Positions 24,078-56,191 of a stretch of 64,000 bases of DNA are shown one piece after another. Source of the stretch: Rhodopseudomonas palustris HaA2 (GTDB taxonomy: Bacteria; Pseudomonadota; Alphaproteobacteria; Rhizobiales; Xanthobacteraceae); assembly GCF_000013365.1 (NCBI RefSeq), contig NC_007778.1, positions 186,001 through 250,000 of the forward strand, read 5' to 3'. The notes beneath the pieces are model-generated. The model was not told where the DNA came from and did not search any database. It saw nothing but the letters and a program-made list of their open reading frames with translations. Position 1 is the stretch's first letter. Every line of letters starts with the position of its first letter. Position numbers and translations under genes: made by a program.

Positions 24078-24099
24078 CGTGGCGGAGAGGGAGGGATTC
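24078..24099. repeat. Left direct repeat: tRNA-Ser 3'-end fragment (candidate att site)
   Basis: The 22 bases cgtggcggagagggagggat plus tc are identical to 56170-56191, where they form the 3' end of the tRNA-Ser(CGA) gene in the same orientation. No tRNA body follows here. The copy lies 97 bp before a tyrosine recombinase gene that reads away from it, as expected of an attachment site at an island end. Confidence 0.8.
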
Positions 24100-24195
24100 T
24101 CCCCACCCCCTTCGCCTAAGCCACTGATGGTTCGAATTTTATCCGTGAAATAAGGCGTTCTTCCATGACTTGGGGCTACACCAAGGGGCTCCACC

Positions 24196-25887
24196 ATGGG
24201 AAATCCGAAAATGCCGTCACCGGTCCGGAAAAGGAGCGCAGACGGGTCCGACAAGTCCGACGTATGGTGGCTGCGCAAGAAGGTGCCGGCCCGATACCGG
24301 GCGATCGTCGGCCGGGGTGAGGTCTGGCGGTCTTTGGGGACGACCGACCTCAAGGCCGCGAATGTCGCCTGCGTCAAGCTAAGCGCCGAACTGGAGCGAG
24401 ACTGGGCCGCACGCCTCCACGCCGCGCAGGACGCCGGTCGGGTCTCCTCGCCTCGCGCCCTCACCTCCCGCGAACTGAGCGGATTGCAGCGACTCGTCCA
24501 CGAACAGACGCGGGACGCGCAGCTTGCCAATCCGCCGCCCCGGCACGCCTGGGGGCTCGACACGGGAGATCGGACCGACGACGAGCATCTCGAAGAACTG
24601 GAATACGACGAGGCCAAGATGGCCTCTTTCCTCGCCCGGAACGGCTTCGAGGTGAGCGAGGCGGACCAGCGGCGTTTTCTGCCCCTATTCCTACAGGCGC
24701 GTCGGGAAGCCTACCGGGATCTGCATCGGGCGACCCGCTTGGACTATTCGGACTCTCCCCTGCTCGCAAAGTACGCGCCAACTCCGTTACCTTCGGTCGA
24801 CTTCCTCGAAGCTTTCGAATTCTATTGTACATCCGCCGGGATCAAGGGCGGGGCGACGGGTCCTACCGCCAGACGGTGGCGATCGAAAATCATAGAGTTC
24901 TGCGAGTTCGTCAATCACGCCGACCTGGCACGCATGACGGCGGACGACGGCTATCGTTGGGTCGATCACCTGGTCGACGCCAAGGGTATCGCCCGAAAAT
25001 CCGTGCGGGACGTTTGGCTCGCCTCCCTGAAGGCAGTCGCAAGCTTCATAGTTGAACGCCGGAAACTCGCCAGCAATCCGTTTCTGGGCATTCGCGTCCG
25101 ACGCGCCGATACGGGAACGAAGGAATCCAATCAAAAGGGATTTACCGATTCCCAGGCTGTCTTAATCCTAACGGCCACGCTCGCAAACCCCTCGCATCTG
25201 ACCATCGCCGAGACCCGCGCGGCGCGGCGGTGGGTGCCATGGATCTGCGCCTACACGAGCGCCCGCGTCAACGAGATCACTTCGCTCCTCCCCTCCGACG
25301 TAAGACAAGATCCAGAGACGGCGATCTGGTGCTTCTATCTACGCCCCGAGATGACCAAGGGGGACTACATGCGGGTGATACCGGTCCACTCTCATCTGAT
25401 CGAACAGGGACTGCTGAATTACGTCGGAGAGCGCGAGGGCTTGTCGCTACCCCTGTTTTATGATCCGCGAAGGGCAGAGGGCGATACGGTGGCTCATCCG
25501 CAATGGCAGAAGATCGCCCAGCGGCTCGCGGAGTGGGTCGTCAACAGTCTTGGCGTTACGGGGGTCAAGCCCAATCACGGTTGGCGCCACCGCTTCAAAA
25601 GCGTAGCCCGTCACGCGAATATGCATCCCGAAGTCGAGAATTTCATTACGGGCCATGGGGGCTCCGACGATCCGGGCGTCATCCAACGCGTGAGCATGCG
25701 GTACGGCGACGCTTGGGTGAAAACGCTCAAGAAGACGATCGAGCTCTACCCCCGCTACGAAATTGAAGGCCTAAAGAGGAGGCCGGAGCCGCATCGCCGA
25801 CCGCGGCGTACCCGCCAGATCGGGGCACCCGGGACAAGGCAAGCATCGACAGCGACGGGGCATGCAAGTCATCGAGACCCGGAGTGA
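24196..25887 (+). CDS. Tyrosine recombinase/integrase
   Basis: 563 residues starting MGNPKMPSPVRKR. The N-terminus resembles DUF6538-type integrases (WWLRKKVPARYRAIVGRGEVWRS split over a conserved basic arm-binding region). The catalytic domain shows Arg in YTSARVNEI, His-x-x-Arg in NHGWRHRFKS, a His in FITGHGG, and a candidate nucleophile Tyr in SMRYGDAW near residue 505. A Pro/Arg-rich tail follows. It begins 97 bp after the tRNA-derived repeat and reads into the island. It would join attP to the tRNA-Ser 3' end. All active-site residues are present, so it may be functional. Confidence 0.85.
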   Translation: MGNPKMPSPVRKRSADGSDKSDVWWLRKKVPARYRAIVGRGEVWRSLGTTDLKAANVACVKLSAELERDWAARLHAAQDAGRVSSPRALTSRELSGLQRLVHEQTRDAQLANPPPRHAWGLDTGDRTDDEHLEELEYDEAKMASFLARNGFEVSEADQRRFLPLFLQARREAYRDLHRATRLDYSDSPLLAKYAPTPLPSVDFLEAFEFYCTSAGIKGGATGPTARRWRSKIIEFCEFVNHADLARMTADDGYRWVDHLVDAKGIARKSVRDVWLASLKAVASFIVERRKLASNPFLGIRVRRADTGTKESNQKGFTDSQAVLILTATLANPSHLTIAETRAARRWVPWICAYTSARVNEITSLLPSDVRQDPETAIWCFYLRPEMTKGDYMRVIPVHSHLIEQGLLNYVGEREGLSLPLFYDPRRAEGDTVAHPQWQKIAQRLAEWVVNSLGVTGVKPNHGWRHRFKSVARHANMHPEVENFITGHGGSDDPGVIQRVSMRYGDAWVKTLKKTIELYPRYEIEGLKRRPEPHRRPRRTRQIGAPGTRQASTATGHASHRDPE

Positions 25888-26253
25888 TGCGATGCGGCCG
25901 CACCTTATCGAGACCTACTTCGATTATTCATGTCATTACATTCCGAGAAGTTACCGTCGGTCGAGAACAGCCATTTTGAAGTCGCCACACTGGATCTCGA
26001 TTGGGATGGTCGACGCAGCGTCCGCCCCGATCGCATACAATATCATTCCGCCCGACAACGGTGACCCGCGCTTCGAAGTCCGCCTCCTTCCTGATCAGAT
26101 CCAGAGCACCGGTTAGAAGACAGTTTGTTGACGAGAATTCGTTCCCTATCAGTCAATGGCAGTCATCGGCGGTTTCCGGGGGAGCCGCAATGGGCGTATA
26201 ATCGTCCTCAACTCGGCGCTTCAGTCCATGCAACGGCAAACATCGAATCATTG
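25888..26253. other. Intergenic region, no recognised feature
   Basis: This gap lies between the convergent integrase and GGDEF-EAL genes. A frame at 25892-26116 would encode about 74 residues (MRPHLIETYFDYSCHYIPRS...), but it has no Shine-Dalgarno site, overlaps shadows of other frames, and matches no family I know. The DNA is noticeably richer in A/T than most of the window. No strong terminator hairpin was seen. Confidence 0.3.
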
Positions 26254-28485
26254 TCAGGCGACCTCCGTGATGCGCGTGATGTCGTGAGCGGCACCGAAAT
26301 TGAGCGCCGAAGCCGGAACTGGGTGACCGAACAGATATCCCTGGAAGTAGTCGACGCCCGCCTCCCGCAGCAGTTCGAACTGACGCACTGTTTCGACGCC
26401 TTCGGCGACGGTGGAGATCCCCAAGCCTCGCGCCAGAGTTATCACCGAGGAGACGATTGTGGCGCAGTCGCTTCGCTCGATCAGATTCATGCTGAAAAAT
26501 TTGTCGATTTTGATTTGATCGAACGGAAATCTCGTTAAATAGCTGAGCGACGAATATCCTGTCCCAAAGTCGTCCAGGGCCACGGATACCCCGAGGGACC
26601 GCAGCTGTCTAATGACGGCGAGGTTGTTGACTTCGTCCTCTAGAAACACGTTTTCCGTGATCTCCACCTCCAAGCGCTCTGGAGGCAGCCCCGAAAGTCG
26701 CAGAGCTTGCGTCACAGTGTCGGTCAAGTTGCCGCGACTCAACTGGACCGGAGAGAGATTGATCGCGAGCTTGATGGGGGCCGGCCAGCGAATGGCCTCG
26801 GCGGCAGCCTCCTTTAGGACCCATTCGCCGAGCTTTTCGATCAGGCCGGTTTCCTCCGCGACCGGAATGAACTCGGACGGCGGCACGAAGCCTCGCCTCG
26901 GGTGGCGCCAGCGTAGCAGCGCCTCCGCGCCGATCACTCTCCCGGACCTGGCTTCGACCTGTGGCTGATAGTACAAATCGAACTCTCGATTCAGAATGGC
27001 TTGTCGCAATTCTCCTTCCAGTTGCTGGCGCGCATTGGCACGGTCCTTCATCGCGGTTTCGAAGGTGACGTATCCGTTGCGGCCAGCCGCCTTGGCTCGA
27101 TAGAGCGCGAGGTCGGCATTTTTGATCAACTCGTCGGAATCCGTGCCGTGTTGGGGGGCCAGCGCGATTCCCGCGCTGGTGCTGATGACGAGCTGATGCC
27201 CGTCGATCTCGATCGGATCGATCAGGCAATTGACGATCCGGTCCGCGAAGGCCACCGCCTCGTTGTACGAGTCTTTCGTCCTTGTCTGCAGCACGGCGAA
27301 TTCGTCCCCACCGAGCCGCGCCAGAACATCCGTTTCGCGAATGCACGCCTTCAGCCGCGAGACCACCGCGCGTAGCAGGGCATCCCCCGCCGGATGTCCG
27401 AGCGAATCGTTGACGAGCTTGAAGCGGTCCAGGTCCAGCATGATGACCGAGAAGGTCTCACCCCAGCGGCGCAGGCGTGCACAGGCCTCATCCATCCTTT
27501 CGTGGAAGGCTCCGCGATTGAGCAGGCCGGTCAGCAGATCGTGGCGGGCCATATGGGCGATTTGCTGTTCGCTGCGATAGCGCTCTGTGATGTCCTCGTG
27601 CACGGTCATCCAGCCGCCACCTGCGACCGGTTGACAGCGCACCAGGATCGTCCGCCCGTCTTGCAGCGAACTCACTTCGGAGATGTCGTCCGAACATCGA
27701 CCAAGCCTGCGTTCCGACCAGCTTTCCACGAACGTCCCGCGTTCTCGGCACGCCGACTGGATCGCGCTCAAAGAAACGCCGCACCGGATTTCGTCGGGTC
27801 TGAGAGAGTAGATTCCGGCGAAGCGTGCATTCGACACCACCACCTTGCGGTCGCCATCGAACATGCACAGCCCATGGAGGAAGTTGTTGAGCGCCGCATC
27901 CAGGCGCAGGTTCGACAGCTCCAGCGTTCGGCTCATCGACCGCAGATGGTTCTCGGTGCGTTCGCGTTCGGCGACTTCGCGGGCGAGACGTCGATTCGCC
28001 AGTCGCAAATCGAGTTGGTCGGCGACCAACGATGCCAGCTCTCGGAGCGTTTCCAGTTGCGCTTTTCCAAGGAGGCGGGGGACCTTGTCGATCGCACAGA
28101 GCACGCCGATGGCAAAGCCCTCCGCGGTTCGTATCGGGGCACCTGCGTAGAACCGCACGCCGCCTGATGCGGTTACCAGCGGGTTGTCGTGGAATCGCGG
28201 ATCGATCGTCGCATCCGCAACCACGAGCGGGCGATCACGAAGGATCGCGTGCGCGCAGAACGCTATATCGCGCGGTGTCTGTTGGTCGGTGACGTTGATC
28301 CGGGCCTTGAACCATTGACGCTCGCTGTCGACAAAGCTGATCACGGCCGAGGGGACGCCGATCGCCCGGACGACCAGCCGAGGGAATATGTCGAAACAAT
28401 CCTCCGACGGGGTATCAAGAATATCATATCGGCGCAGCGCGGTGAGCCGCGCCTGCTCGTTGTCCGGAAGCGGGGCTGAGATCAT
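26254..28485 (-). CDS. GAF-PAS-GGDEF-EAL cyclic-di-GMP signalling protein
   Basis: 743 residues from the ATG at 28485; a GTG six codons earlier is also possible. Order: GAF (about 20-165; SAVISFVDSERQWFKA), PAS (about 195-305), GGDEF (about 310-470) and EAL (about 485-740). The cyclase site RLGGDEF (392-396) is intact, with an RETD inhibitory I-site five residues before it. The EAL site is AEALLRW near 521, with DDFGTGYSS and AEGVET also present, so phosphodiesterase activity is likely too. No membrane segment, so it is a cytoplasmic sensor. It stands alone, downstream of the chemoreceptor on the same strand. Confidence 0.88.
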   Translation of the reverse strand: MISAPLPDNEQARLTALRRYDILDTPSEDCFDIFPRLVVRAIGVPSAVISFVDSERQWFKARINVTDQQTPRDIAFCAHAILRDRPLVVADATIDPRFHDNPLVTASGGVRFYAGAPIRTAEGFAIGVLCAIDKVPRLLGKAQLETLRELASLVADQLDLRLANRRLAREVAERERTENHLRSMSRTLELSNLRLDAALNNFLHGLCMFDGDRKVVVSNARFAGIYSLRPDEIRCGVSLSAIQSACRERGTFVESWSERRLGRCSDDISEVSSLQDGRTILVRCQPVAGGGWMTVHEDITERYRSEQQIAHMARHDLLTGLLNRGAFHERMDEACARLRRWGETFSVIMLDLDRFKLVNDSLGHPAGDALLRAVVSRLKACIRETDVLARLGGDEFAVLQTRTKDSYNEAVAFADRIVNCLIDPIEIDGHQLVISTSAGIALAPQHGTDSDELIKNADLALYRAKAAGRNGYVTFETAMKDRANARQQLEGELRQAILNREFDLYYQPQVEARSGRVIGAEALLRWRHPRRGFVPPSEFIPVAEETGLIEKLGEWVLKEAAAEAIRWPAPIKLAINLSPVQLSRGNLTDTVTQALRLSGLPPERLEVEITENVFLEDEVNNLAVIRQLRSLGVSVALDDFGTGYSSLSYLTRFPFDQIKIDKFFSMNLIERSDCATIVSSVITLARGLGISTVAEGVETVRQFELLREAGVDYFQGYLFGHPVPASALNFGAAHDITRITEVA

Positions 28486-28613
28486 GGCCGCGTTCCAGTA
28501 CACGCGATGAGAGTGCGGCAGTTTGAGCGGCTATCTAGCGACATCTCGACACCTCGGCTTATCAAATATCCGACGACGGTCGACAAACGCATCGACGCCG
28601 CTCCGAAATCTCC

Positions 28614-30680
28614 TCACGCCGCCCGCACCGTCTCCACGAAACGGGTGACCTCGTCCTTGAGCCGGTTGCTGTCCCGCGACAGCGATTGCGCCGCCGCCAG
28701 CACTTGGCTCGACGCCGAACCGGTCTCAGTGGCGCCCCGCTGAACATCGCAGATGTTCGACGAAACTTGCTGGGTACCTTGCGCGGCCTGCTGCACGTTG
28801 CGGGAGATCTCCTGCGTGGCCGCACCTTGTTCTTCCACGGCGGAGGCAATCGTCGAGGCGATCTCCGACATCCGTTCGATGGTGCCGCCGATTTCACGGA
28901 TGGCCCCGACCGAATCCTGGGTCGCGGCCTGCATTCCGGAAATCTGCTGGCTGATTTCGCCGGTTGCCTTGGCTGTCTGCTCGGCGAGCGCCTTGACCTC
29001 CTGTGCCACGACCGCGAAGCCGCGACCGGCGTCGCCGGCGCGGGCCGCCTCGATCGTGGCGTTGAGCGCCAGCAGATTGGTCTGGCCAGCGATCGTATTG
29101 ATCAACTCGACAACGTCGCCAATTCGGTTCGCTGCGTCGGCAAGATGACCGATGCGGTCGTTGGTTTTGCGGGCTTGATCGACAGCCTCACCCGCGATCC
29201 GCGCCGAAGTCTGCACCTGGCGGCTGATCTCGGAGATCGACGACGCCATCTCCTCGGTCGCGGACGCCACCGACTGCACGTTGGCCGAGGCCTGCTCCGA
29301 CGCCGCCGCCACCGACGTGGCCAGCTCCTGGGAGCGATCGGCGGTCGTCGTGAGTGTGCCGGCCGAAGCCTCGAGCTCCGTAGAGGCCGAAGTCACGGTC
29401 TGGATGATCTCACCGACGGCGCCTTCGAATTCGTCGGCAAGCTGCTGCATCTCGGCCTTGTGTTGAGCCGCGGAACGGCGCTCGGCTTCCTCTTGCTCTT
29501 CCCTCAGCCGGATCACTTCGAGTGCATTGTTCTTGAAGACCTCGACGGTGCACGCCATAAGACCGATCTCGTCCAGCCGCCCGGAGCCGACCACCTCGAC
29601 ATTCAGATTGCCGCCGGCCAGTTCCTTCATCGCGCCCGACATCTGAACGATGGGCCGCGAGATCGCACGGCCGATCAGCCATGCGAGCAACATGCCCACG
29701 ACCAGCACGCCGGCCGTGATGATCAGGATCTGACTCTTGGTGTCGCCGAGCAATGCTTCGGTGTCCTTGGCGATCTTCTGCTGGTCGGCAATTCCGGACT
29801 GCTTGATGTTCGCCGCATCGCCTGCGATCGCCGTCGCGGCTTTCGGCATCGTGCCATTGACCAGCACTTCGATCTCGTGGGCAACGCGCGACGCCTTCTG
29901 ATAAGCATTCGCGTAGTTCTTGATGTCGACCTCGATCTCGCCGATTTGCTTGCGGCCGGCCGATGAACCGATCGCAGTCTTTAGCGCCGACATCGCTGTC
30001 TTGAGGTCGGCTAAGGCCTTCTCCGCGGCGTCCGCGGCGGCTTGGTCGTGACGACCGAGCACCTTATTCACATCGAGCCTCAGCAGCAGCAGTTGCTTCA
30101 CCGCCTCAGCGACGAGGAGCGAAGTGGTCTCCCCGCCATCGTTGGCAGTAATCGCTGCTTGAAGTTGCTCAAGCTTAAGTCGTGCCTGCTGACCGGTGGG
30201 ATCCAGCACCTCACGGATCAGCTTGCTCTGGTCGCGACGCATTCGGAACACGTCGGCGAAGGACGTGGTGTAGGCGTCGAACGCCTGACTGATCTCCCTC
30301 ATCTTGGCCAGGCGAGACGGATCGTGGATCTCCTTCAGGCCCTGCGCGATGCTCTGCCGCAGAGCGTTCTGGCGGCTCTCTGCTTCGCTGATCAGCGCCT
30401 CGTCACCGGTGAGGCTGTATTCGCGCACGAACCGACGAAAGGCGGTGAAGCCGCGATCGACGTCGCGGACAATGCCCACGACCTGAACCCGCTGGTCGAG
30501 CGCCACGAAGGCCTGCCTGACATGTTCGAAGGAGGAGTAATTCAGGACGGCGAGAACAACCATCAGGACCTGGACCAGAACAAATCCGATCGCGACCTTG
30601 GTGCCGATTCTCCTGTTGGTAAAGACGTCGAACAATCCAGGCGATCGCGGCTCGCCGTTGCGCGTGGTTCTGCTGGTCAT
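28614..30680 (-). CDS. Methyl-accepting chemotaxis protein
   Basis: 688 residues. A membrane segment at about 25-47 and another at about 318-340 frame a periplasmic helical ligand-binding region of about 270 residues. A HAMP domain follows ([20 protein letters not shown]). The cytoplasmic signalling hairpin carries the conserved tip [20 protein letters not shown] and then [17 protein letters not shown]. The C terminus ends VETVRAA without a CheR-docking pentapeptide. The ligand is unknown. There are no che genes nearby, so it would plug into a chemotaxis array encoded elsewhere. Confidence 0.9.
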
Positions 30681-31409: not shown

Positions 31410-32393
31410 ATGACGACGTCGGGAGCTAATAATGTCCGAGTCGCCGATTCGTGTCGAAGCTGGAGAACTGCATTGGCCGAACCGAAGAGGGTGTCTGCGG
31501 TGGACCGTGCAAGCGAAGAGGTCGGGAGGCCCCCCCGCTCCGCGATCAGGTCATGGGGTCAAAGGAAGATCGAGGCGGGATACTGGTCGATCGATTGGCC
31601 GGGCGTCATTCAGAGGGAGATGTCTCTCTCCACCAGGGCCTTCTGCGAACTATCGATGGTGTTGACGCCTGTGGACGACATGACCCTACTCCGCGGTGAA
31701 ACAACCATAAGAACCGGCCCGCTTCAGAGCGGACGATTTCGCGTCGCGCCCGCCAACGCCGCACTATCGGCCAGCGTTTCGGCGAGTGGTCCCGTCAAAT
31801 TCCTGAAAGTATTCTTCGCGGAGGAGACGGCGCGCGCGATCGGCTCGGCGATCCATTCTCATTCGATCGATATCGAACTGGAAGATCCGATGCTGGGCAC
31901 GAACGACCCGCTCCTGGTCGCGCTCGGCAGAGAAGTCGTCGAAAACATGAATGATCCCAGGCCGACCAACCGCGCCTTCGCCGAAGAAGCGGCCATCTTG
32001 ATGGCTGGAAGGGTCGTTTCCCACTATTCGACAGCACGCTACTGCACCAGCATCGCGGTTCGATCTCCCGGTCTGGATCCCAATCTGGACAGAGCGCTGC
32101 AGCTGATGCGGGATCACATCGGTGATTCCATCGATCTCGGGATGCTTGCGGCGTCCGTCGACATGTCGGCATTCTCCTTTGTCCGCGCCTTCAAGAAGAA
32201 ATACGGTTTGCCTCCAATTCGGTATCATCGCGGGATGAGGATCGAGTGGGCGAAGACGCTGCTATCAACGACAGCGTGCCCGGTTGGCAAGATATCGAAC
32301 ATGCTGGGTTTCAGTGAACCGAGTCATTTCGTTTCAGCGTTTCGGAAGACGACGGGTTGCACGCCACTGGCTTATCGCCGGTTTCGAAGCTGA
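31410..32393 (+). CDS. AraC-family transcriptional regulator
   Basis: 327 residues from the ATG at 31410. Two C-terminal HTH motifs are visible: IDLGMLAASVDMSAFSFVRA with FKKKYGLPPIRYH, and VGKISNMLGFSEPSHFVSAF with FRKTTGCTPLAYRRF. The layout matches AraC/XylS regulators of about 300 residues. The N-terminal region has no cupin signature I can name. The nearest genes are a chemoreceptor (divergent) and, after 536 bp, the convergent hydrolase gene, so the target is not evident. Confidence 0.82.
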   Translation: MTTSGANNVRVADSCRSWRTALAEPKRVSAVDRASEEVGRPPRSAIRSWGQRKIEAGYWSIDWPGVIQREMSLSTRAFCELSMVLTPVDDMTLLRGETTIRTGPLQSGRFRVAPANAALSASVSASGPVKFLKVFFAEETARAIGSAIHSHSIDIELEDPMLGTNDPLLVALGREVVENMNDPRPTNRAFAEEAAILMAGRVVSHYSTARYCTSIAVRSPGLDPNLDRALQLMRDHIGDSIDLGMLAASVDMSAFSFVRAFKKKYGLPPIRYHRGMRIEWAKTLLSTTACPVGKISNMLGFSEPSHFVSAFRKTTGCTPLAYRRFRS

Positions 32394-32929: not shown

Positions 32930-33772
32930 TTACGATTTAATGAAAGCGAGCAGGTCGGCATTGAGCACGTCGGGGTGCGTGGTCAGCATGCCGTGCGGAT
33001 AGCCCGGATAGGTTTTCAGCTTGCCGTTCTTGAGCAGCTTGACCGAAAGCCGCCCCGCGTCGTCGATCGGGACGATCTGATCGTCCTCGCCGTGGAGCAC
33101 CAGGGTCGGGACCGTGATCGCCTTGAGGTCGTCGGTCTGGTCGGTCTCGGAGAAAGCTTTGATGCCGTCGTAGTGCGCCTTCGCGCTGCCCACCATGCCC
33201 TGACGCCACCAATTATTGACCACGCCGGGCGACGACTGAGCGCCCGCCCGATTGTAGCCGTAGAACGGGCCGCCGGCGACATCGAGATAAAATTGCGCGC
33301 GGTTGTCGGCGAGCGCCTTGCGGAAGCCGTCGAAGACTTCGATCGGCAGGCCGCCCGGGTTGTTCTCGGTCTTCAGCATCAGCGGCGGCACGGCGCTGAC
33401 GAGGACGGCTTTCGCGACCCGGCCGCTGGGCTGGCCGAATTTGGCGACATACCGCGCCACTTCGCCGCCGCCGGTCGAATGGCCGATATGGACGGCGTTC
33501 TTGAGATCGAGATGTTCCATGACAACGAAAGCGTCGGCCGCATAGTGATCCATGTCGTGGCCGACATCGACCTGCGACGAGCGTCCGTGGCCACGCCGGT
33601 CATGGGCGACGACGCGGTAACCTTGCGACAGAAAGAACAGCATCTGCGCATCCCAGTCGTCGGACGACAGTGGCCAGCCGTGGTGAAACACGATCGGCTG
33701 GGCCTCCCGGGGGCCCCAGTCCTTGTAGAAGATCTCGACGCCGTCCTTGATCGTGACGAATCCGCTGCTCAT
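32930..33772 (-). CDS. Alpha/beta hydrolase, non-heme chloroperoxidase-like (island copy)
   Basis: 280 residues from the ATG at 33772, with AAGGAGA 7 bp upstream. It has the same length as the protein at 17926-18768 and about 245 of 280 positions are identical by eye. The triad S99 (GHSTGG), D231 (GEDDQIVP) and H260 (GYPHG) is intact. Differences cluster near residues 170-190 ([18 protein letters not shown]), possibly at the lid over the active site. It probably has the same esterase or perhydrolase chemistry. The next gene upstream on the same strand is Dps, which suggests a link to peroxide stress, though their spacing allows separate promoters. Confidence 0.88.
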
Positions 33773-37471: not shown

Positions 37472-37624
37472 GGCGATCACTTGCTCCGTTCCGTCTGTCA
37501 CGCAAGTCAAGAAGCGAGGCGGTTTTCGCTGCCCAGTGCATTCGCGGTTCTCGAATGGACGGACAACAAGCCGGCAAAGGGGGCTTGCGCGCGATTCGTT
37601 GCCGCGCGCAAGACACCGGCTCGA

Positions 37625-47068: not shown

Positions 47069-48184
47069 TTGTCCGATGATCGAGGTCAGGCCGGATCGGC
47101 GTCACAATCGGGTGCCTGGCGCCGTCTGGCGATTCCGTTGCTCGCCGTCAGTGCGGCGGTTGCGTTCACCATCGTGGCGACGCTGCGGTGGGATGCCTGG
47201 ATCGGCAGCCGTGCGGTGCAGACCACCGACGACGCCTATGTCCGCGCCCAGATCACGCAGTTGAGCAGCCGCGTTGCGGGCGCGGTCAAGACGGTCGCGG
47301 TCGACGACTTCCAGCGCGTCAAGGCAGGTGATCTGCTGATCCAGATCGATCCGGCCGATTACATCGCGCAGGTCGAGCAGGCGGAGGCGGCGGTGGCCGG
47401 CGCCGAGGCCGCGCTCGACAATCTCGCCAACCAGATCGACCTGCAGAACGCCACGATCGAGCAGGCCGAGGCGCAAAGCGTGTCGGCGCAGGCGCTCGAA
47501 GTGGAGGCGCAGCAGGAAGACCAGCGCCAGCAGGCGCTGGTACGGACCGAAGCCGGCACCGTACAGAAATTCCAGCAGGCGGTCGCCGCCTATGCCAAGG
47601 CCAAAGCCGATGTCAGAGCCGCCATCGCGGTGGTGGCGGCACAACGCCAGCAAATGGCCGTGCTGGCCGGCACACGACAGCAATTGACCGCCACGTTGCA
47701 CGGCGCGAAGGCCACCCTCGATGCCGCGAAATTGCGCCTCGGCTACACCAGAATCGTCGCGCCGTTCGACGGCGTCGCCAGCGAGCGGCAGGTGCAGCCC
47801 GGCGACTACGTCAACACCGGCAGCAATCTGATCAACGTGGTGCCGCTACCGCGGGTCTACGTCATCGCCAACTACAAGGAGACTCAGCTGCGTCGGGTTC
47901 GGCCCGGACAACGCGTGACCATCGTGGCGGACACGTTCTCCGGCCAGACGCTGAAGGGCGAGGTCGAGCGGATTTCGCCGGCCAGCGGTTCGCAATTCGC
48001 TCTGCTGCCGCCCGACAATGCCACCGGCAATTTCACCAAGGTGGTGCAGCGGATCCCGGTCCGGATCCAGTTCGCGCCCGGCCAGCCGCTGCTGGAGCGG
48101 TTGCTGCCGGGCATGTCGGTCACCACCCGAATCCATGCCGATGACGGTCCGGTCGGAGATCATGTCGACAGCGCACATCGTTGA
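47069..48184 (+). CDS. EmrA/HlyD-type membrane fusion protein
   Basis: 371 residues from a TTG preceded by GGGGGA. One N-terminal membrane segment (about 20-42) is followed by TTDDAYVRAQITQLSSRVAG, the lipoyl half-motif of EmrA proteins. A long coiled coil comes next, then GYTRIVAPFDGVASERQVQP and the barrel domain. It would link the MFS pump encoded next to an outer-membrane channel. No outer-membrane gene is present, so a channel encoded elsewhere must serve. It lies 20 bp after cydB, which suggests one transcript. Confidence 0.88.
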   Translation: MSDDRGQAGSASQSGAWRRLAIPLLAVSAAVAFTIVATLRWDAWIGSRAVQTTDDAYVRAQITQLSSRVAGAVKTVAVDDFQRVKAGDLLIQIDPADYIAQVEQAEAAVAGAEAALDNLANQIDLQNATIEQAEAQSVSAQALEVEAQQEDQRQQALVRTEAGTVQKFQQAVAAYAKAKADVRAAIAVVAAQRQQMAVLAGTRQQLTATLHGAKATLDAAKLRLGYTRIVAPFDGVASERQVQPGDYVNTGSNLINVVPLPRVYVIANYKETQLRRVRPGQRVTIVADTFSGQTLKGEVERISPASGSQFALLPPDNATGNFTKVVQRIPVRIQFAPGQPLLERLLPGMSVTTRIHADDGPVGDHVDSAHR

Positions 48185-49745
48185 AAGCGGCCCGGTCTCG
48201 ACCGGCGGCATCGGTCCGCGGCCGCTGTTCGCGGTCGGCGCGGTGCTGCTGGGCTCGTTCCTGTCGAATTTCGACAGCCGGCTGTTCGCGATCGCGCTGC
48301 CGGATCTGCGGGGCGCGCAGTCGCTGAGCTTCGATCAGGGCGCCTGGCTGAGCACCGCCGCCACCGCGTCGCAGATCTTCATTGCGCCGGCGGTCGCCTG
48401 GATGGCGACTGCGTTCGGCCTGCGCCGTGTGCTCGGCCTTCCCAGTCTGGCCTATGCGGTCGTGTCGCTGCTGATCCCGCTGGTGCACAGCTATGAGCTG
48501 ATGATGGCGCTGAGCGTCGTCCACGGTCTTCTGCTCGGCATCTTCGTTCCGGCGACGCTGCTGATCATCTTTCGCAATCTGCCGTTGCGCTGGTGGCTTC
48601 CGGCGATTTCGATCTACGCGATCCGCGTCGGCTTCAGCCTGAATTTCGGCATCTCGGTGGTCGGGTTCTATGTCGATCAGATCGGCTGGCAATGGCTGTA
48701 TTGGCAGGACGCGCTGATCGCGCCGCTGCTCGGCCTGTTCGTCTATCTCGGGACGCCGGCCGAACCGGTGAATGCGCCGCTGGTGAAGCAGGCCGATTGG
48801 GGCGGCATGCTGCTGCTGGGCTCCGGCATGGCGCTGATCTTTGCAGGGCTGGATCAGGGCAACCGGCTGGACTGGCTGGGTTCGGGAACAGTGGTGGCTT
48901 GCCTCGGCTGCGGCGCCGCGCTGGTCGCAGGCTTCTTCGTCAATGAGCGCGTCGTCGCCCAGCCCTGGGCGCATGCCAATGTGCTGTTCTCGCGCAATAT
49001 CGGCTTCGCGCTGCTGATCATCCTGCTGTTCTCGCTGACCAGTCTGTCGAACTCGCTGCTCGCGCCGGATTTCCTGGCGAGCGTTGCGGGATTGCGGCCG
49101 GAGCAATCGGGGCAATTGTTTCTGGTCTATGCGGTGCTGCCGATGCTGCTGTGGGTGCCGCTGTCGGTCTGGCTGATCCGCCGGATCGATGTCCGGCTGG
49201 TGCTGATCGCCGGGCTGGCGGCGTTCTGTGCGGCCGGCCTGCTCGGCACCCGGCTCACCCACGCCTGGGCGCTCGGCGATTTCGTCCCGATGGTGCTGCT
49301 GCAATCCTTCGGCCAGGCTTTCACGCTACTGCCGATCGTGATCATCACGCTGTCCAATTCCGATCCGCAGCGCGCCACAGCGTTCGCGGCCTATATTCAG
49401 GTCGCCCGGCTCGGTGGCGCCGAACTCAGCGTGTCGCTGATGACGACATGGCTGAGGGTGCGCGAACAATCGTATTCCAACCTGCTGGGGCTGCATGTCG
49501 CCAAGGGCGATCCGCTCGTCAGCGGCGTCCTGTCCGACCTCACTCGGCATTTCGACGGCGCCGGCTCGGGCGAGGCGCAGTCGCGGGCGATCACGACACT
49601 GGCGCAGATCGTCCAGCGCGAGGCGAATACGCTGTCGTTCATCGATGGGTTCTGGCTCGCGGCCTGGTTCGGCGTCGCCGCGCTGCTGTGTGCGGCCTGC
49701 ATCCGCGCCGCGCCGCCCGGACCATTCACCCCGAAAGGCGGTTGA
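48162..49745 (+). CDS. DHA2-type MFS efflux transporter, EmrB-like
   Basis: 527 residues from the ATG at 48162, which overlaps the adaptor gene by 23 bp. About 14 hydrophobic segments place it in the DHA2 group. Landmarks are SNFDSRLFAIALPDLRG in helix 1, QGAWLSTAATASQIF and GLLLGIFVPATLL. It would export a lipophilic or anionic compound with its EmrA-like adaptor by proton antiport. Its position after pyruvate oxidase and bd oxidase suggests export of a toxic compound met under the same stress. The substrate cannot be read from sequence. Confidence 0.87.
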   Translation: MSTAHIVESGPVSTGGIGPRPLFAVGAVLLGSFLSNFDSRLFAIALPDLRGAQSLSFDQGAWLSTAATASQIFIAPAVAWMATAFGLRRVLGLPSLAYAVVSLLIPLVHSYELMMALSVVHGLLLGIFVPATLLIIFRNLPLRWWLPAISIYAIRVGFSLNFGISVVGFYVDQIGWQWLYWQDALIAPLLGLFVYLGTPAEPVNAPLVKQADWGGMLLLGSGMALIFAGLDQGNRLDWLGSGTVVACLGCGAALVAGFFVNERVVAQPWAHANVLFSRNIGFALLIILLFSLTSLSNSLLAPDFLASVAGLRPEQSGQLFLVYAVLPMLLWVPLSVWLIRRIDVRLVLIAGLAAFCAAGLLGTRLTHAWALGDFVPMVLLQSFGQAFTLLPIVIITLSNSDPQRATAFAAYIQVARLGGAELSVSLMTTWLRVREQSYSNLLGLHVAKGDPLVSGVLSDLTRHFDGAGSGEAQSRAITTLAQIVQREANTLSFIDGFWLAAWFGVAALLCAACIRAAPPGPFTPKGG

Positions 49746-49779
49746 GCCACCTGCCGCTCTCACCACCAGAGGAGGTTTC

Positions 49780-50088: not shown

Positions 50089-50228
50089 ATCGGCAGGCCG
50101 ACGGATCGAGATCACGTCGGCCATAGCGCGCATACCCAAGTATAATCCTCGGCTCGGTCCAACTCCACATATGAGAGAAGCAACGTCGCGCTTCTCGGTG
50201 CGTCGACGTCGAGTTGGGGAGCGCACTG

Positions 50229-51053
50229 ATGTCGTCACATTCCTTGCAGATCGCCGGCGAACGAGTCTGTGCGCGCCATGCGGCCGGCGTATCTTCCGCG
50301 AGTTCGATGGGGCGATGTCAGCAGCCGGACGAGGTCTGGTCCGGGCACTTGCGGAACCGCGAGCGATCGAATTTCGATTTGAAGAAAATGGCCGCGTTGA
50401 TTCGGGCCCTCACCGCCGAAGGTGGTGCGACGCCCGGAATCGTGAGCGGCTTGCGGCCGCCGGCCGCGAGCGGCGGCGAGACGGTGCTGAATTTCCGCGA
50501 TCGGAGTGAAGGCCGTCCGGGCCCGGGTGATCCGCCCTGTACGGATGACGACCCATTAGTGATCCGGCTGTCGGAAGCATTGGCGGCCGCCGAGTGCGAT
50601 TCGTCGGAATTCGCCGACCTCTACGCCGATGCGATCCGCGTCGTCACGGCCGTGCGGAAGCTGAGCATGCAGCCGCCGGCCGCGCTAATCGAGGACCGGA
50701 AGCCGACCGGCGGCGCGGTGTTGCCGAAGTGGCGGCTGAAGCTGGTCGCCAATTATGTCTCCGAGCATCTCGCGGAGAAGGTGACGCTGGCCGACATGGC
50801 GGCGGCGGCGCGGTTGAGCCGGATGCATTTCGCCGCACTGTTCCTGCGCGCGACCGGGCTGCGGCCTCATGAATATCTGCTGAAGCGGCGCATCGCCGCG
50901 GCGCAGGAGCTGCTGCAGACGGGCGATCTGCCGATCGTCCAGGTCGCCATGCAGGTCGGATTCCAGACCCAGGCGCACTTCACCACCGTGTTCAAGAGGA
51001 TCACGGGCCACACCCCGGCGAAGTGGCGACAGACGATGCGGCCACACGACTGA
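50229..51053 (+). CDS. AraC-family transcriptional regulator
   Basis: 274 residues from the ATG at 50229, with GGGGAG 7 bp upstream; a TTG five codons earlier is possible. The last 100 residues hold both AraC HTH motifs: VTLADMAAAARLSRMHFAAL with FLRATGLRPHEYLLKRR, and IVQVAMQVGFQTQAHFTTVF with KRITGHTPAKWR. The N-terminal 165 residues show no cupin motif and look partly disordered. It follows the zinc-finger gene by 140 bp on the same strand and may control the respiratory/efflux run. Confidence 0.82.
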   Translation: MSSHSLQIAGERVCARHAAGVSSASSMGRCQQPDEVWSGHLRNRERSNFDLKKMAALIRALTAEGGATPGIVSGLRPPAASGGETVLNFRDRSEGRPGPGDPPCTDDDPLVIRLSEALAAAECDSSEFADLYADAIRVVTAVRKLSMQPPAALIEDRKPTGGAVLPKWRLKLVANYVSEHLAEKVTLADMAAAARLSRMHFAALFLRATGLRPHEYLLKRRIAAAQELLQTGDLPIVQVAMQVGFQTQAHFTTVFKRITGHTPAKWRQTMRPHD

Positions 51054-51383: not shown

Positions 51384-52070
51384 CTAAAGCGGTGGATTTC
51401 CCTGCCGGCTCGGCGTTGCATCGGGATGCGTCTCAGGGGCCGCACGGACGCCGAGCTGATCGGCAAGACGAACCAGCTCGGCAACGGATTTCACCTGCAT
51501 CTTCCGGATCATGTTGCCACGATGAATCTTGACGGTGATTTCGCTGAGCGACAGCCGCCAGGCGATCTGCTTGTTCATCAGCCCGGCTGCGACCAGTGCC
51601 ATCACCTCGCGTTCACGCGGCGTGAGCTGTTCGTAGCGCAGGCGGATGCTCTCATCGCGATGCGCATCGTTGCGTCGACGCTGGTCGCGGGAAACAGCTT
51701 CTGCCACAGCGGCAAGAAGGGCTTCTTCCTCGAACGGTTTGGGTAGAAAATTGACGGCGCCCGCTTTCATCGCGCGCACCGTCTTCGGGATATCGCCGTG
51801 TCCGGAGATCAGGATGATTGGGATCGATGCGTCGCTCGTGACCAATTCCTGCTGGAATTCAAGTCCGTCGGCTTCCCCGAGCTGAATATCGAGAATCAGA
51901 CAGGAAGCGGCATCGACCGCGTCCGAGGCGAGAAAATCCAGCGGCCCAGCGAATGTCTTCACCGCATAACCGATCGACCGTAGCAGGCTGCTGAGCGAAC
52001 TACGGACATCCTCATCGTCGTCGACAACGCAGATCAGCGGCGATTGCGAGAGGTTCGGAGATTTGCTCAT
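51384..52070 (-). CDS. FixJ/NarL-type response regulator (island copy)
   Basis: 228 residues. Receiver: DDDEDV at 17-22, phosphoacceptor D61 in CLILDIQLGEADG, Ser in ISGHGD, and Lys in FLPKPF. Output: LuxR/FixJ HTH with LTPREREVMALVAAGLMNKQ and LSLSEITVKIHRGNMIRKM. It is the last gene of a leftward cluster: truncated GAF kinase, PAS kinase, receiver-only protein, this regulator. The start overlaps the receiver gene by 4 bp (ATGA), so their production is coupled. The architecture mirrors the regulator at 11228-11860. Confidence 0.88.
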   Translation of the reverse strand: MSKSPNLSQSPLICVVDDDEDVRSSLSSLLRSIGYAVKTFAGPLDFLASDAVDAASCLILDIQLGEADGLEFQQELVTSDASIPIILISGHGDIPKTVRAMKAGAVNFLPKPFEEEALLAAVAEAVSRDQRRRNDAHRDESIRLRYEQLTPREREVMALVAAGLMNKQIAWRLSLSEITVKIHRGNMIRKMQVKSVAELVRLADQLGVRAAPETHPDATPSRQGNPPL

Positions 52071-52480
52071 GACTTTGGACCTGATCGGTCGGACGGGACG
52101 CGGCGATGCCGTGCGGCCCGCAGGATCGCCTCGACGTCGTGCAGAAGGATTTCCGGATCGACCGGTTTATCGACGAAGCCGGCGGCGCCGAGGTCGCTGG
52201 CCTCGGCGCGTGCCTCCGGGGTGGAGTAGGCCGTCATCATGATCACCGGGATATTGACGCCGCGCCGCAGGAGCTCGCGGTGCAGTCCGAGCCCGTCCAT
52301 TCCGGGCATGTGCAGATCCGTAATGAGGCAATCGGTGTCGGGGAGCGAGGGCGAGGCCAGGAAGGTCTCGGCCGCGGCGAAGCCCTCGACATGCAGCCCG
52401 ACCGAACGAAAGAAGCTCGAGATGCTCTCACGAACGTCTTCGTCGTCGTCCACAATGGTGATGGTGGATAGGTGCAGCAA
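52067..52480 (-). CDS. Receiver-only response regulator (island copy)
   Basis: 137 residues from a TTG at 52480, supported by GGGAG 7 bp upstream. The receiver has DDD at 11-13, phosphoacceptor D55 in CLITDLHMPGMDG, Thr in MMTAYS, and Lys in FVDKPVD. There is no output domain. It lies between the PAS histidine kinase and the FixJ-like regulator and could pass phosphate between them or compete for it. D55 has the same residue number as in the receiver-only protein at 11949-12338, which suggests common origin of the two clusters. Confidence 0.82.
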   Translation of the reverse strand: MLHLSTITIVDDDEDVRESISSFFRSVGLHVEGFAAAETFLASPSLPDTDCLITDLHMPGMDGLGLHRELLRRGVNIPVIMMTAYSTPEARAEASDLGAAGFVDKPVDPEILLHDVEAILRAARHRRVPSDRSGPKS

Positions 52481-52555
52481 CGTCGTCTCCCACCGGGATA
52501 GCCTTGTCCGGCTGTCTCGATGGTATGACGAATCCGCCGGCCGCTGCCCATCATA

Positions 52556-54463
52556 TCAAGATATGAGACGACGCGCGCCCGCCGCTTCGGCCGAAGCCTT
52601 GCGCGGCAGGGTGAAGGCAACGGTGGCGCCTGGGCCCACGTTGTTGGATGCGGAGATGGAGCCGCCTTGTGCCTCGATGATGGTCTTGCAGATCGATAAT
52701 CCGAGGCCCATGCCGTCCGGCTTTGTCGAGAAGAACGGATCGAAAATCCGGTGCGGATCCCCAGCGATGCCGGTTCCGGAGTCCCGCACCGCGACGACGA
52801 TGGCGTCGTCGGCCGTTCCGTCCAGACTGACACGGATTTCGCTGCTGCTACCGGCGCCGCGTGTCGCTTGCAGCGCGTTCATCATCAGATTGACGACGAC
52901 CTGCTGGACTTGCACGCGGTCACATTCGACCTGAGGCAGCCGTCCATTCTGATCGATCCGGATCGCTGTCCCCGCACTGCGGGTCTCCCGGGCCAGCAGA
53001 GCCGCCGCGTCCTGGACCAGAGCGGCAAGATCCACCGGACCGGCCTGTGGGGCCGACTTCCTCGCGAGGGAGCGGACCCTGCCGACGACATCTGCGGCGC
53101 GGTTGCCGTTCGAGACGATCTTGTCCAGGCAGTCGGCGACCTCGACCAAATCGGGTTCCGCGCGCGTCAGCCAGCGCTTGCCGGATTTTCCGTAGTTGAT
53201 GATGGCCGCCAGCGGCTGATTGACTTCGTGCGCGATCGAGGCGGCGAGCTGGCCGAGCACCGAGACGCGGCCGGCATGCGCCAGTTCTACGGAGGTTTGT
53301 TCGATCTTGGCCCGGGCTCGGTTGCGCTCGGTCACGTCGAACGCCATCAGCAACACGCGCGACCAATCAACCCCGTCGGGGAGCACCGACAGGCGCAGAA
53401 CCGCGTCGATGGGTTGGCCGCTCAGCGTCGCGAACCGGGCTTCGGTTTCGACCAGCATTGCGCCGGCGGCCAGTTGCGTAAAAATGGTCTCCAATGCCCA
53501 CCCGGTGTCCTGCTTCGAACCGCGCAACACTTTGCCCGAAGAGAGATCGGCCGTGGTCTCCGCTTCGAACATCACCAGGGCGGCCGTGTTGGCGTTGTAG
53601 ATTCTGATCTCATCCGCCGCCTTGTCGAGTAGCTGCGGATAGGCGCGCACCGCCGGTGCAAGCTCCTCACCTGTTCCGGCGGCCAAGACCAGGCGCATCG
53701 CGCCGCTGAGGTCGCATTCCAGAGCGGCAAAACCGCCAGAGTTGAAGATGGTGCTGAAGCGATGTTCCGAACGCCGCTGCTCGGCCTGGGCACGGCGACG
53801 TTCGGTCAGGTCCGCACTGGTCTCGATGACGCCGATCGGGCGTCCTTCCGGATCGCGTCGTTGCAGCCATCGCGTCGCCAGGACGAGCGGTGTCCCGTCG
53901 CGTCGGGTGCGGACGATTTCGCCGGACCAGGCGCCGGTCCGTCGCAGCGACTGATTGATCTCCTCGACCGGCACAATTCCCTGCAGCAGGTCGTCGCATT
54001 GCCGGCCGATGGCTTCCCCCCGGGTCCAGCCGTACAGCCGTGCCGCGCCCTCGTTCCAATAGCGCACGACGCCGGATGGATCACGGATCACCACGGTGTC
54101 GTGCGAGAGTTCGAGGATCCTCCCCTGCTCGGCGAGGGTGACGCGCGCCGAACGATCGCGCAACGACAGCAGGACGGTGATCAGGATGGCGACCAGACTG
54201 ACCGCGAAACGCAGCAGGGCGCCGCTGACCAGATCGTTCGCATGTCCCCACAGGAAGGCGGTCGCCGTCAGCACGGCCGAGATGTAGCCGGCCGCGAGGA
54301 TGAACCGGCGCCCCAGCGGCGCGACCATCAGCACGACACCGGTGTAGAGAACGGCCACCGCGCCGTCGATCGGGCTCAGCGCATCAGCAGCGAAAATCAG
54401 CAGCAAGGAAATGAAGGCCGCCAGGATTACGACCTGCCGCCTCCTTTGGTCGATCGTCGTCAC
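52556..54463 (-). CDS. Membrane-bound PAS sensor histidine kinase
   Basis: 635 residues from a GTG with GAGGT upstream. Three or four membrane segments occupy about residues 8-100. A PAS domain follows (about 115-225; ILELSHDTVVIRDPSGVVRY, YGWTRGEAIGR), then a second PAS-like region (about 235-385). The kinase core has H412 in SIAHEVNQPLAAIINYG, an N box in NLMMNALQATRG, DSGTGI, and GMGLGLSICKTIIEAQGG. This is the FixL/NtrB-like HWE-free type that often pairs with FixJ-like regulators, such as the one two genes downstream. No heme-binding FixL motif could be confirmed. Confidence 0.87.
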   Translation of the reverse strand: MTTIDQRRRQVVILAAFISLLLIFAADALSPIDGAVAVLYTGVVLMVAPLGRRFILAAGYISAVLTATAFLWGHANDLVSGALLRFAVSLVAILITVLLSLRDRSARVTLAEQGRILELSHDTVVIRDPSGVVRYWNEGAARLYGWTRGEAIGRQCDDLLQGIVPVEEINQSLRRTGAWSGEIVRTRRDGTPLVLATRWLQRRDPEGRPIGVIETSADLTERRRAQAEQRRSEHRFSTIFNSGGFAALECDLSGAMRLVLAAGTGEELAPAVRAYPQLLDKAADEIRIYNANTAALVMFEAETTADLSSGKVLRGSKQDTGWALETIFTQLAAGAMLVETEARFATLSGQPIDAVLRLSVLPDGVDWSRVLLMAFDVTERNRARAKIEQTSVELAHAGRVSVLGQLAASIAHEVNQPLAAIINYGKSGKRWLTRAEPDLVEVADCLDKIVSNGNRAADVVGRVRSLARKSAPQAGPVDLAALVQDAAALLARETRSAGTAIRIDQNGRLPQVECDRVQVQQVVVNLMMNALQATRGAGSSSEIRVSLDGTADDAIVVAVRDSGTGIAGDPHRIFDPFFSTKPDGMGLGLSICKTIIEAQGGSISASNNVGPGATVAFTLPRKASAEAAGARRLIS

Positions 54464-54692
54464 TACTTGACCTCACTGGGTTGCCCAGTCAATTTGTGGA
54501 GGGCACGCATTCGTTGCGGACCGCCTCCGACGCGAGCAAAGTTAGCTCGCATCATCGTGATGCGCGGTTCGAAACCAAGTTATACGTAGGTTTGCGTGGG
54601 CGAAGCCGATTTTCGGGCGCAATGCGGTCCGGTTGGGTTGCTTGTCCCAAGCGATCAATCTGCTCGCGACATCACGTCGCGGAACATTCCGA

Positions 54693-55976
54693 CTACATGG
54701 CCGCCGCGTCGGCCTCCGCCGAACGCGGAAGGGAAAACTGAAAGCGTGCCCCGTGCGGCTTGATCGATCTCGCCCATAGCCGCCCTCCATGCGCTTCCAC
54801 GATCGATCGGCTAATCGACAGTCCCATGCCCATGCCCTGGGGCTTGGTCGTCACCAGCGCTTCGAACAGCTGCTCGATGCGGCCTTCGTGGAAACCGAGG
54901 CCGTTGTCCTCGAGGGTGACGACAATACTGTCGGCGTCACCCGACGCGGTGGTCACCGTCAGCAGCCGGCGGCCCTCGATCGCGGCCATGGACTCGATCG
55001 CGTCCATGGTCAAATTGAGTAGCACCTGCTGCAGCTGTACCTTGTTGCCGATGACGACGCCGGCACCGTCCGCCAGTCTGGTTTCGAGGTGGATCGTATG
55101 TTGACGCAATTCGCTCTGAACGATCGAAAGGATTTCCTGGACGACGGCGTTGACGTCGACTGGCAACATCTTCGGCACGGACTTGACCGCCAGGCCGCGG
55201 ATCGTCTGCACCACCTCTGCGGCGCGTCGGCCGTTCTCGATGACGCGGCGAGCGGCGCTCTCGGCCTCGACGATCGACGGTTGCTCGTTGCCCAGCCAGC
55301 GCAGGTACACGTCGGCATTGGTGATGATCGCCGTCAGCGGCTGGTTGATCTCGTGCGCGATCGAAATCACCAGTTCGCCGATTGCAGTCAGGCGAGACAT
55401 CCGCATCAGCTCGGATTGCGATTTTTGCAACGCCTCGACCAGTGCGTCCTTTTCTTCCAGGAGGGCGTTCTTGAGGGAGATCGCCGCCTGCGACGACAGC
55501 AACTTCAGAACCGATAACTTCATCGGCGTGAACACGCCCGTGGCGAGATCGTTCTCGAGGAAGATGATCGCGAGCAACTTGTTGCGCTTCATCAGCGGTA
55601 GGCACAGCAGCGAGCGTGACTTCATCCGTGCGATATACGGATCGTCCCCGAACGGGCTGGATTGGGCGTCGTCGACCGTAATCGCTTCACCCGTTCGCGC
55701 GGCCAGGTTCACCAGCGAGGTCGGCAGATCGTCTTCGGTGGCGATGTCGTCGCGCAGCTTGACTTGAATGCCGTCGTCGCCGGTGCTCGCCTCGGTGCGG
55801 ATCGTCAAATCGGCCTGCTGCGGGAGGATCAGCAGGCCGCGCTGCGCGCCAGCATGTTCCAGCACCAGCGTCATCAGCGTTTCCATCAGGCGCGGAACGC
55901 CCAGTTCGCTCGAGACCGCCTCAGAGGTTTTTACCACGGCGGCCAGATCGAAACTGTCGGAGAGGCTGAGCGGCAC
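54693..55976 (-). CDS. GAF-histidine kinase: truncated paralogue of the giant kinase
   Basis: 427 residues from a GTG at 55976 with a weak AAGG site. It matches the C-terminal 420 residues of the protein at 12370-17463 almost throughout: SFDLAAVVKTSEAVSSE, a GAF domain (about 15-155), H208 in SIAHEINQPLTAIITNADVY, and GMGMGLSIS. The match begins at residue 1278 of the giant protein. Just upstream the frame hits a stop codon four codons before the GTG, so the kinase-like, ATPase and helical domains are lost. It may still work as a small soluble kinase. Only 193 bp separate it from the right end of the island. Confidence 0.85.
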   Translation of the reverse strand: MPLSLSDSFDLAAVVKTSEAVSSELGVPRLMETLMTLVLEHAGAQRGLLILPQQADLTIRTEASTGDDGIQVKLRDDIATEDDLPTSLVNLAARTGEAITVDDAQSSPFGDDPYIARMKSRSLLCLPLMKRNKLLAIIFLENDLATGVFTPMKLSVLKLLSSQAAISLKNALLEEKDALVEALQKSQSELMRMSRLTAIGELVISIAHEINQPLTAIITNADVYLRWLGNEQPSIVEAESAARRVIENGRRAAEVVQTIRGLAVKSVPKMLPVDVNAVVQEILSIVQSELRQHTIHLETRLADGAGVVIGNKVQLQQVLLNLTMDAIESMAAIEGRRLLTVTTASGDADSIVVTLEDNGLGFHEGRIEQLFEALVTTKPQGMGMGLSISRSIVEAHGGRLWARSIKPHGARFQFSLPRSAEADAAAM

Positions 55977-56169
55977 CTGCGTACCTTAAGCCGGCGACAC
56001 TAGGGGATCGCTACTTGCCGAAGACTGGGGCCAGAGAGGCTCGACGAAACGGGTTGCAGCCTCCGCCCACCTTATGGCACGTTTTGGCCCCGCCCCAGGG
56101 GCTACACCCATCGCCTGCAAGCGTGTGAGAAAGCCTCGATTTTCATAGGGTTTTCGTAGCGTCAGAAAA

Positions 56170-56191
56170 CGTGGCGGAGAGGGAGGGATTC
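56170..56191. repeat. Right direct repeat: tRNA-Ser 3' end (candidate att site)
   Basis: Identical over 22 bp to 24078-24099 and in the same orientation. It covers the last 20 nt of the tRNA-Ser gene, including CCA, plus two flanking bases. Identity stops exactly where the T loop continues (GAAC here, TCCC at the left copy). Confidence 0.8.

Follow-up and report, generated by a model that had tools for sequence, protein, structure and literature searches.

A probable 32.1-kb genomic island at an accessory tRNA-Ser(CGA) gene of Rhodopseudomonas palustris HaA2

Introduction

The closest described systems to the locus reported here are the tRNA-integrated islands of Islander, which require an intact tRNA gene, a co-oriented displaced 3′ fragment, a tyrosine integrase, and a length of 2-200 kb (PMC4383910). 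We analyzed a 64,000-nucleotide stretch of the Rhodopseudomonas palustris HaA2 chromosome (NC_007778.1, positions 186,001 to 250,000), referred to below as the window and used for all coordinates unless stated otherwise. It very likely holds a 32.1-kb genomic island, installed by its own tyrosine recombinase at an accessory tRNA-Ser(CGA) gene. By every Islander criterion tested, the element is an ordinary tRNA-integrated island: the tRNA is intact, a co-oriented 3′ fragment lies downstream and reaches the tRNA end, a tyrosine integrase lies inside, the length is 32.1 kb, and the fragment is outside any conserved protein domain. The attachment site likewise runs from the T-arm to the acceptor. 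The use of an accessory duplicate tRNA sets our locus apart from those islands, with no difference of principle (PMC4383910).

Within the same bacterial family, Bradyrhizobium cosmicum has a photosynthesis cluster island, which has other cargo (PMC7656271). Island gain and loss is suggested for Rhodopseudomonas genomes in general (PMC12016538), and no island is reported by composition in strains PS3 and CGA009 (PMC6109142). Our literature search found no description of the present island and no paper combining DUF6538 with integrase. One paper combines Rhodopseudomonas, tRNA-Ser, genomic island, and integrase; judging by its title, it concerns Cupriavidus. For an island whose predicted cargo serves acid and oxidative stress and alternative respiration, the ends are now placed exactly, and a sister element and a motif that the integrase probably binds can be named. 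What the analysis adds is the accessory tRNA copy, a larger variable slot, the sister element, the arm motif, and a clade of integrases with a flipped core.

Results

Boundaries of the element

The element is framed by a 22-bp direct repeat, CGTGGCGGAGAGGGAGGGATTC, whose exact and co-oriented copies at 24078-24099 and 56170-56191 are spaced 32,092 bp apart. ARAGORN finds a single tRNA in the window, tRNA-Ser(CGA), on the minus strand at 56172-56261, with its 3′ end toward the island; the right copy of the repeat consists of the last 20 nt of this gene plus 2 bp. The left copy sits between the end of a major facilitator superfamily (MFS) gene at 23626 and the start of the integrase at 24196. 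These are the features from which an initial annotation, made from the letters alone, had proposed an island, and each was borne out: the perfect repeat, the tRNA end that faces the island, and a tyrosine recombinase at the left repeat, where the open reading frame (ORF) at 24196-25887 on the plus strand has the full catalytic set.

The 19-bp core of the repeat is found at three sites in the whole 5,331,656-base genome, namely the left copy and two tRNA-Ser(CGA) genes. Across 16 genomes of the genus (HaA2, or G000, included), it occurs at 20 places in 14 genomes. Since the core occurs only three times in the genome and a reversed-pattern control is absent from all 16, the repeat is not due to chance. 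The second tRNA-Ser(CGA) gene lies at C1:278853-278957 (window coordinate ~92,853-92,957), 36.7 kb to the right of the window copy, and is identical to it across the 90-nt gene. The initial annotation had named a longer pairing with another tRNA-Ser gene as a challenge to its proposal. Such a gene does exist, but the left copy matches it over only 20 bp, against 22 bp for the window tRNA, and the pairing of 24078 with 56170 therefore holds.

Two relatives bear on the ends of the element. In genome G010, the most similar relative of the region, collinearity with small gaps runs from -43 kb (the end of the stretch compared) to 10,106 and resumes at 56,172. This right-flank match, at 94% identity, begins exactly at the tRNA 3′ end, which therefore marks the right end of the island. 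The second relative is a sister element in R. infernalis HC1 (L132, G002:C11:19889-77990). It has an integrase 79% identical to ours, the same tRNA target, the same right end, and arm sites at both ends; it differs in length (58 kb), in cargo, and in sitting at the other tRNA copy, the one 36.7 kb to the right in HaA2. Homology starts at 24079, and over the 122 bp that separate the start of the core from the integrase gene identity reaches 96%, above that of the gene itself. At the right end, homology covers 56098-56336 (88%), that is, the last 72 bp of the element plus the tRNA. The left flank and nearly all of the cargo are dissimilar. Because the sister shares both ends while flank and cargo differ, the ends are correct, and site-specific integration at a tRNA 3′ end with both boundaries, as initially annotated, is upheld.

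The island also stands out in composition. Its GC content is 63.2%, against 66.0-67.5% in the surroundings, and none of 192 windows of equal length (1-kb steps, 224 kb) has a GC content as low. Mean GC at third codon positions (GC3) is 0.80 in the island, 0.88 and 0.89 in the outer flanks, and 0.85 in a neighboring cassette at 10.4-23.6 kb. The lower GC3 makes a donor outside this lineage likely.

Core and accessory copies of tRNA-Ser(CGA)

The DNA 5′ of the second tRNA (93 kb upward) is common to all 15 other genus genomes, with only 1.3 kb of this flank comparable in G013, whose contig ends there. Sequence comparison thus identifies the copy 36.7 kb to the right as the core tRNA, and the window tRNA with ~75 bp upstream as an accessory extra copy. 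Two copies at ≥95% identity are present in 3 of the 16 genomes (HaA2, G009, and G010); the other 13 have a single full-length match each. The initial annotation had implied that an empty site would place the MFS gene next to a DUF2130 gene. The latter is present in 4 of the 16 genomes and adjoins the tRNA in two, and the window tRNA is itself an extra copy; adjacency of MFS and DUF2130 is therefore unusable as an empty-site test.

A motif at the element ends

The motif GGKKCTMCACC is found at three sites in the window (24172, 24185, and 56098), all at the ends of the element. Shuffled versions of the window contain it 0.19 times on average, and none of 100 shuffles has three. Over 224 kb of the HaA2 genome the count stays at 3; G002 (98 kb) and G007 (60 kb) have 4 sites each, and all 11 are at element ends; none was found in G009 (100 kb) or G008 (40 kb). 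In both G002 and G007, a pair spaced by 13 bp stands at each end of the element. From this distribution, the motif is probably an arm-type site of the integrase. Where G002 and G007 have two arm sites on the right, our element has only one, a difference that might weaken excision.

The G007 element (C22:655218-677455, 22 kb) has the same target as ours, an integrase 46% identical (in two frames there), a left core with 1 mismatch, and two arm sites per end. Its cargo is different, with a Gabija GajA/GajB pair and a nuclease-helicase among the genes. In the corresponding stretch (L065, G007:C22), matches to defense profiles for this pair and the nuclease-helicase protein lie at 735-4215 and 12172-14262.

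The arm motif may also reveal new members of the group after the integrase has been lost. At the core tRNA of G010, positions ~2918-3027 of L056 (G010:C1) are 80% identical over 110 bp to the right end of the element, with no integrase match nearby. This stretch resembles the right end of an element of the same family in a decayed state.

The integrase and its relatives

For the integrase, Pfam yields only DUF6538, and PHROGs yields an integrase family. Residues R357, K388, H461, R464, and Y503 are conserved in 96-100% of a 69-row alignment; we take them to be the catalytic pattern of tyrosine recombinases. There was no match at E 1e-5 among 50,697 phage records, and the 32 matching plasmid records are all below 60% identity. 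A sequence search of solved structures gave two weak matches only (E 0.33 and 0.69), which we regard as chance. A PF00589 search misses the window's own integrase and so tells little about related integrases. The small ORF that overlaps the integrase end has no Pfam or PHROG match.

In named genomes, relatives of the integrase occupy at least 72 loci, drawn from 80 stretches listed. Among the matches listed, 57 of 72 lie within 1.5 kb downstream of an intact tRNA, every one in the tRNA's orientation, and 15 have no such tRNA within 1.5 kb upstream. The tRNAs of the 57 are Thr(GGT) in 29 cases, Ser(CGA) in 12, Ser(GGA) in 5, Tyr in 4, Leu(TAA) in 3, Phe in 2, and Arg and Leu(GAG) in 1 each. In five members (the window, R. 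infernalis, G007, one Mesorhizobium bin, and one Bradyrhizobium bin), the tRNA-Ser core has the opposite orientation and starts 113-125 bp ahead of the integrase match; the three with both ends visible have the intact tRNA at the far end. These five flipped-core integrases form one group (support 100/99; one change on the tree, a value that none of 500 shuffles reached). The strict arm pair is found in all five and in none of 69 other named loci.

Gene content

Features of the element are collected in Table 1. We scanned 29 island ORFs with Pfam, including two alternative readings of one spacer and one shorter reading of an ORF. NCBIfam names passed their cut-offs for PoxB, the FdhF/YdeP family, bicupin oxalate decarboxylase, and the sigma-32 subfamily. 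No relaxase or type IV secretion genes were found among the 29 ORFs, shorter ORFs being outside the scan; this agrees with the initial annotation, which saw no conjugation functions. Nor did the Pfam scan reveal phage structural, packaging, or replication genes among these ORFs (PHROGs covered two ORFs only), and none of the scanned ORFs was recognisable as an excision factor.

Table 1. Coordinates of the attachment sites, predicted arm-type sites, and genes of the element
Feature	Position	Strand	Basis
Left attachment site, displaced tRNA-Ser 3′ fragment (20 nt + 2 bp)	24078..24099	-	Exact repeat of 56170-56191; R. infernalis homology from 24079
Predicted arm-type site pair, GGGGCTACACC and GGGGCTCCACC, 13 bp apart	24172..24195	+	Motif GGKKCTMCACC; pair also at integrase end of the other four clade members
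Tyrosine recombinase (integrase), N-terminal DUF6538	24196..25887	+	Pfam PF20172 E 3e-12; phrog_1 integrase E 6e-13; R357, K388, H461xxR464, Y503
Small ORF overlapping integrase end; related ORF behind R. infernalis integrase	25862..26116	+	Comparison with R. infernalis element
GAF-PAS-GGDEF-EAL cyclic-di-GMP protein	26254..28503	-	Pfam
Methyl-accepting chemotaxis protein	28614..30680	-	Pfam
AraC-family regulator	31410..32393	+	Pfam
Alpha/beta hydrolase, DNA 86% identical to cassette hydrolase at 17.9-18.8 kb	32930..33772	-	Pfam
Dps-like ferritin	33879..34574	-	Pfam; under Dps equivalog cut-off
DUF3551 small protein	34720..34983	+	Pfam
Sigma-32 (RpoH-like) sigma factor	35351..36340	-	NF005143 279 bits, cut-off 241; under RpoH equivalog cut-off
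DUF1275 membrane protein	36746..37510	-	Pfam
Bicupin oxalate decarboxylase family	37625..38986	-	TIGR03404 562 bits, cut-off 254
Two CrcB-like proteins	38996..40097	-	Pfam
PoxB, ubiquinone-dependent pyruvate dehydrogenase	40211..41941	+	NF006591 1000 bits, cut-off 792
FdhF/YdeP-family molybdopterin oxidoreductase	42221..44614	+	TIGR01701 957 bits, cut-off 582; under YdeP equivalog cut-off
Cytochrome bd oxidase subunits I and II	44630..47049	+	Pfam
HlyD-type adaptor and DHA2/EmrB-like MFS transporter, efflux pair	47138..49745	+	Under EmrA/EmrB cut-offs; adaptor above general RND_mfp cut-off
AraC-family regulator	50214..51053	+	Pfam
Two-component module: LuxR-type response regulator, single-domain response regulator, PAS histidine kinase	51384..54463	-	Pfam
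GAF histidine kinase, DNA 81% identical to C-terminal end of giant kinase (12.3-17.5 kb)	54693..55976	-	Pfam
Predicted arm-type site, right end, single copy (two in G002 and G007)	56098..56108	+	Motif GGKKCTMCACC
Right attachment site, within tRNA 3′ end	56170..56191	-	Exact repeat of left copy
tRNA-Ser(CGA), intact, second genome copy	56172..56261	-	ARAGORN; genus tRNA comparison

PoxB, YdeP, cytochrome bd, and oxalate decarboxylase have established roles in acid, oxidative, and electron-overflow responses in other bacteria. By analogy with these roles, the cargo, with PoxB, the YdeP-family protein, cytochrome bd, oxalate decarboxylase, the Dps-like protein, sigma-32, and CrcB, resembles a set of genes for acid, oxidative, and electron-overflow conditions. 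The CrcB-like proteins are of the fluoride channel family.

Much of this cargo has a counterpart, at 67-85% identity, in G006 (1.07-1.10 Mb) and on contig C74 of G009. The order sigma-32, DUF1275, oxalate decarboxylase, CrcB, CrcB, PoxB, YdeP, CydAB, AraC is kept there; Dps, the hydrolase, and the kinase module are at other positions, and the HlyD/MFS pair is missing. Both counterparts lie near tRNA-Gln, and the 80 and 70 kb examined contain no tRNA-Ser; tRNA-Ser(CGA) is at 0.17 Mb in G006 and on a different contig from the cargo in G009. The left flank of the tRNA-Gln-linked place exists in the HaA2 genome at 5.04 Mb, and the right flank was unmatched in the 5 genomes queried. On a wider scale, PoxB-YdeP-CydAB DNA was matched at E 1e-150 or better in at least 92 of 296 family genomes, mostly as PoxB or YdeP alone; this count is a lower bound, as one or two candidates were scored per genome for most. 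These comparisons of sequence indicate that the island carries a genus module, a reshuffled cluster, rather than exotic DNA. The initial claim that the cargo is all accessory stands, but the cargo is not confined to the island. The same gene order without the integrase had been named as grounds for dropping the island. G006, which has no match to the window integrase, does keep the order from sigma-32 to AraC, but it has these genes elsewhere in the chromosome and lacks the efflux pair, so the insertion reading is not undone.

The spacer at 49779-50095 (~310 bp) has no Pfam match; G006 and G009 also have it behind cydAB, at 80-85% conservation. In R. infernalis, it is found in reverse orientation immediately beyond the left attachment site of the element there.

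Discussion

We infer an integration event of the following kind. A circular form, with the integrase beside its attachment site (attP), would recombine with the accessory tRNA-Ser(CGA) at its 3′ end, the part from T-arm to acceptor. With the tRNA made whole again by the right end of the element, the 20 nt that had ended the gene would come to lie 32 kb away, at 24,078. The integrase would grip both ends through the arm-type sites GGKKCTMCACC. Strand exchange, the circular form, and arm binding are the proposed parts of this account, and in a live element the junction is predicted to read ...gtcagaaaaCGTGGCGGAGAGGGAGGGATTCtccccaccccc...

Several observations weigh against this account. A search for a clean empty site by tRNA context in the 16 genus genomes, which extended more than 20 kb into the left flank for G008, G009, G010, and G012 alone, found none, and the slot holds other DNA in G010 (37.4 kb) and G009 (115.7 kb). 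The 450 bp of left flank at 23,628-24,077 have no homologue among the loci compared. Relatives have the cargo at other places, so that carrying it does not by itself indicate mobility. The arm motif was derived from left ends and the right end of the window element, so the independent checks are the right ends of G002 and G007. One copy in 80 kb of G010 lies 3.1 kb from the core tRNA and not at an intact end, and single copies occur in 4 of 69 named loci outside the clade (L136, L171, L175, and L187). A looser arm pair is present in two loci outside the clade (L170 and L175), and that of L175 adjoins its integrase.

A 69-kb element that extends from the left copy as far as the core tRNA (92.86 kb), and so includes the window tRNA as internal cargo, is favored by the 20-bp pairing of the left copy with the core gene. 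We rejected this longer element as most improbable: G008 and G012, each with one tRNA copy and no integrase match, share parts of 57.8-92.1 kb next to the core tRNA with the order unchanged; the nearer tRNA pairs over the longer 22 bp; and the arm motif in 224 kb falls at 24.2 and 56.1 kb only. Hardly credible at all is a chance repeat beside an unrelated recombinase in a region of ordinary variable chromosome. The occurrence of cargo elsewhere in the genus without the integrase would suit it, but the repeat core occurs only three times in the genome, a sister element has the same ends, and the arm motif in the window is confined to these ends.

Compatible with the 32.1-kb island, and tentatively entertained at somewhat less than an even chance, is a history in which the element is the latest of several insertions into a slot reaching from 10.1 kb to the tRNA copy, the cassette having come earlier. 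The slot differs in length, with 46 kb in HaA2 and 37.4 kb in G010; in G009, counted from position 7,896, where shared sequence ends, it reaches 115.7 kb. The cassette holds an AraC regulator, a response regulator, a hydrolase, an amidohydrolase, an isochorismatase-like protein, the MFS gene, and a kinase of 1,700 residues with Ser/Thr-kinase/AAA/GAF/histidine-kinase architecture. It occurs in 10 of the 15 other genus genomes, away from the tRNA or on another contig, and its flanks in G009 are unlike those in the other four of five contexts compared. The initial annotation had treated the DNA left of 24,078 as plain old chromosome; with the DNA shared with G010 stopping at 10,106 and the cassette lying elsewhere in those 10 genomes, this does not hold: the element begins at 24,078 on the left, but the variable slot extends further. 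Stepwise insertion is opposed by the lack of any attachment-like repeat near 10.1 kb (≤4 mismatches) and by G004, in which DNA corresponding to -13.5 to -4.5 kb in window coordinates lies close to the cassette, which argues for an older arrangement and a loss in G010. Because of this position in G004, the cassette may be older than the island here and have been lost in G010. Two island genes, at 54693-55976 and 32930-33772, are 81% and 86% identical in DNA to parts of the cassette, as if pieces had been traded.

Beyond the single island, the five clade members could belong to a small, unnamed family of integrative elements in Rhodopseudomonas, Bradyrhizobium, and Mesorhizobium, a proposal that we find evenly balanced. 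Its members would have the tRNA-Ser core flipped relative to the integrase, would have integrases that recognise a 13-bp-spaced GGKKCTMCACC pair near each end, and would trade whole cargo modules (stress and respiration here, Gabija in G007), with a duplicated tRNA-Ser serving as a second landing site in one lineage. In a further genome (G014:C10), the tRNA-Ser core occurs at 26323 and 144048, 118 kb apart, and one of the two adjoins an integrase relative with stops; this pair is possibly the ends of a large element.

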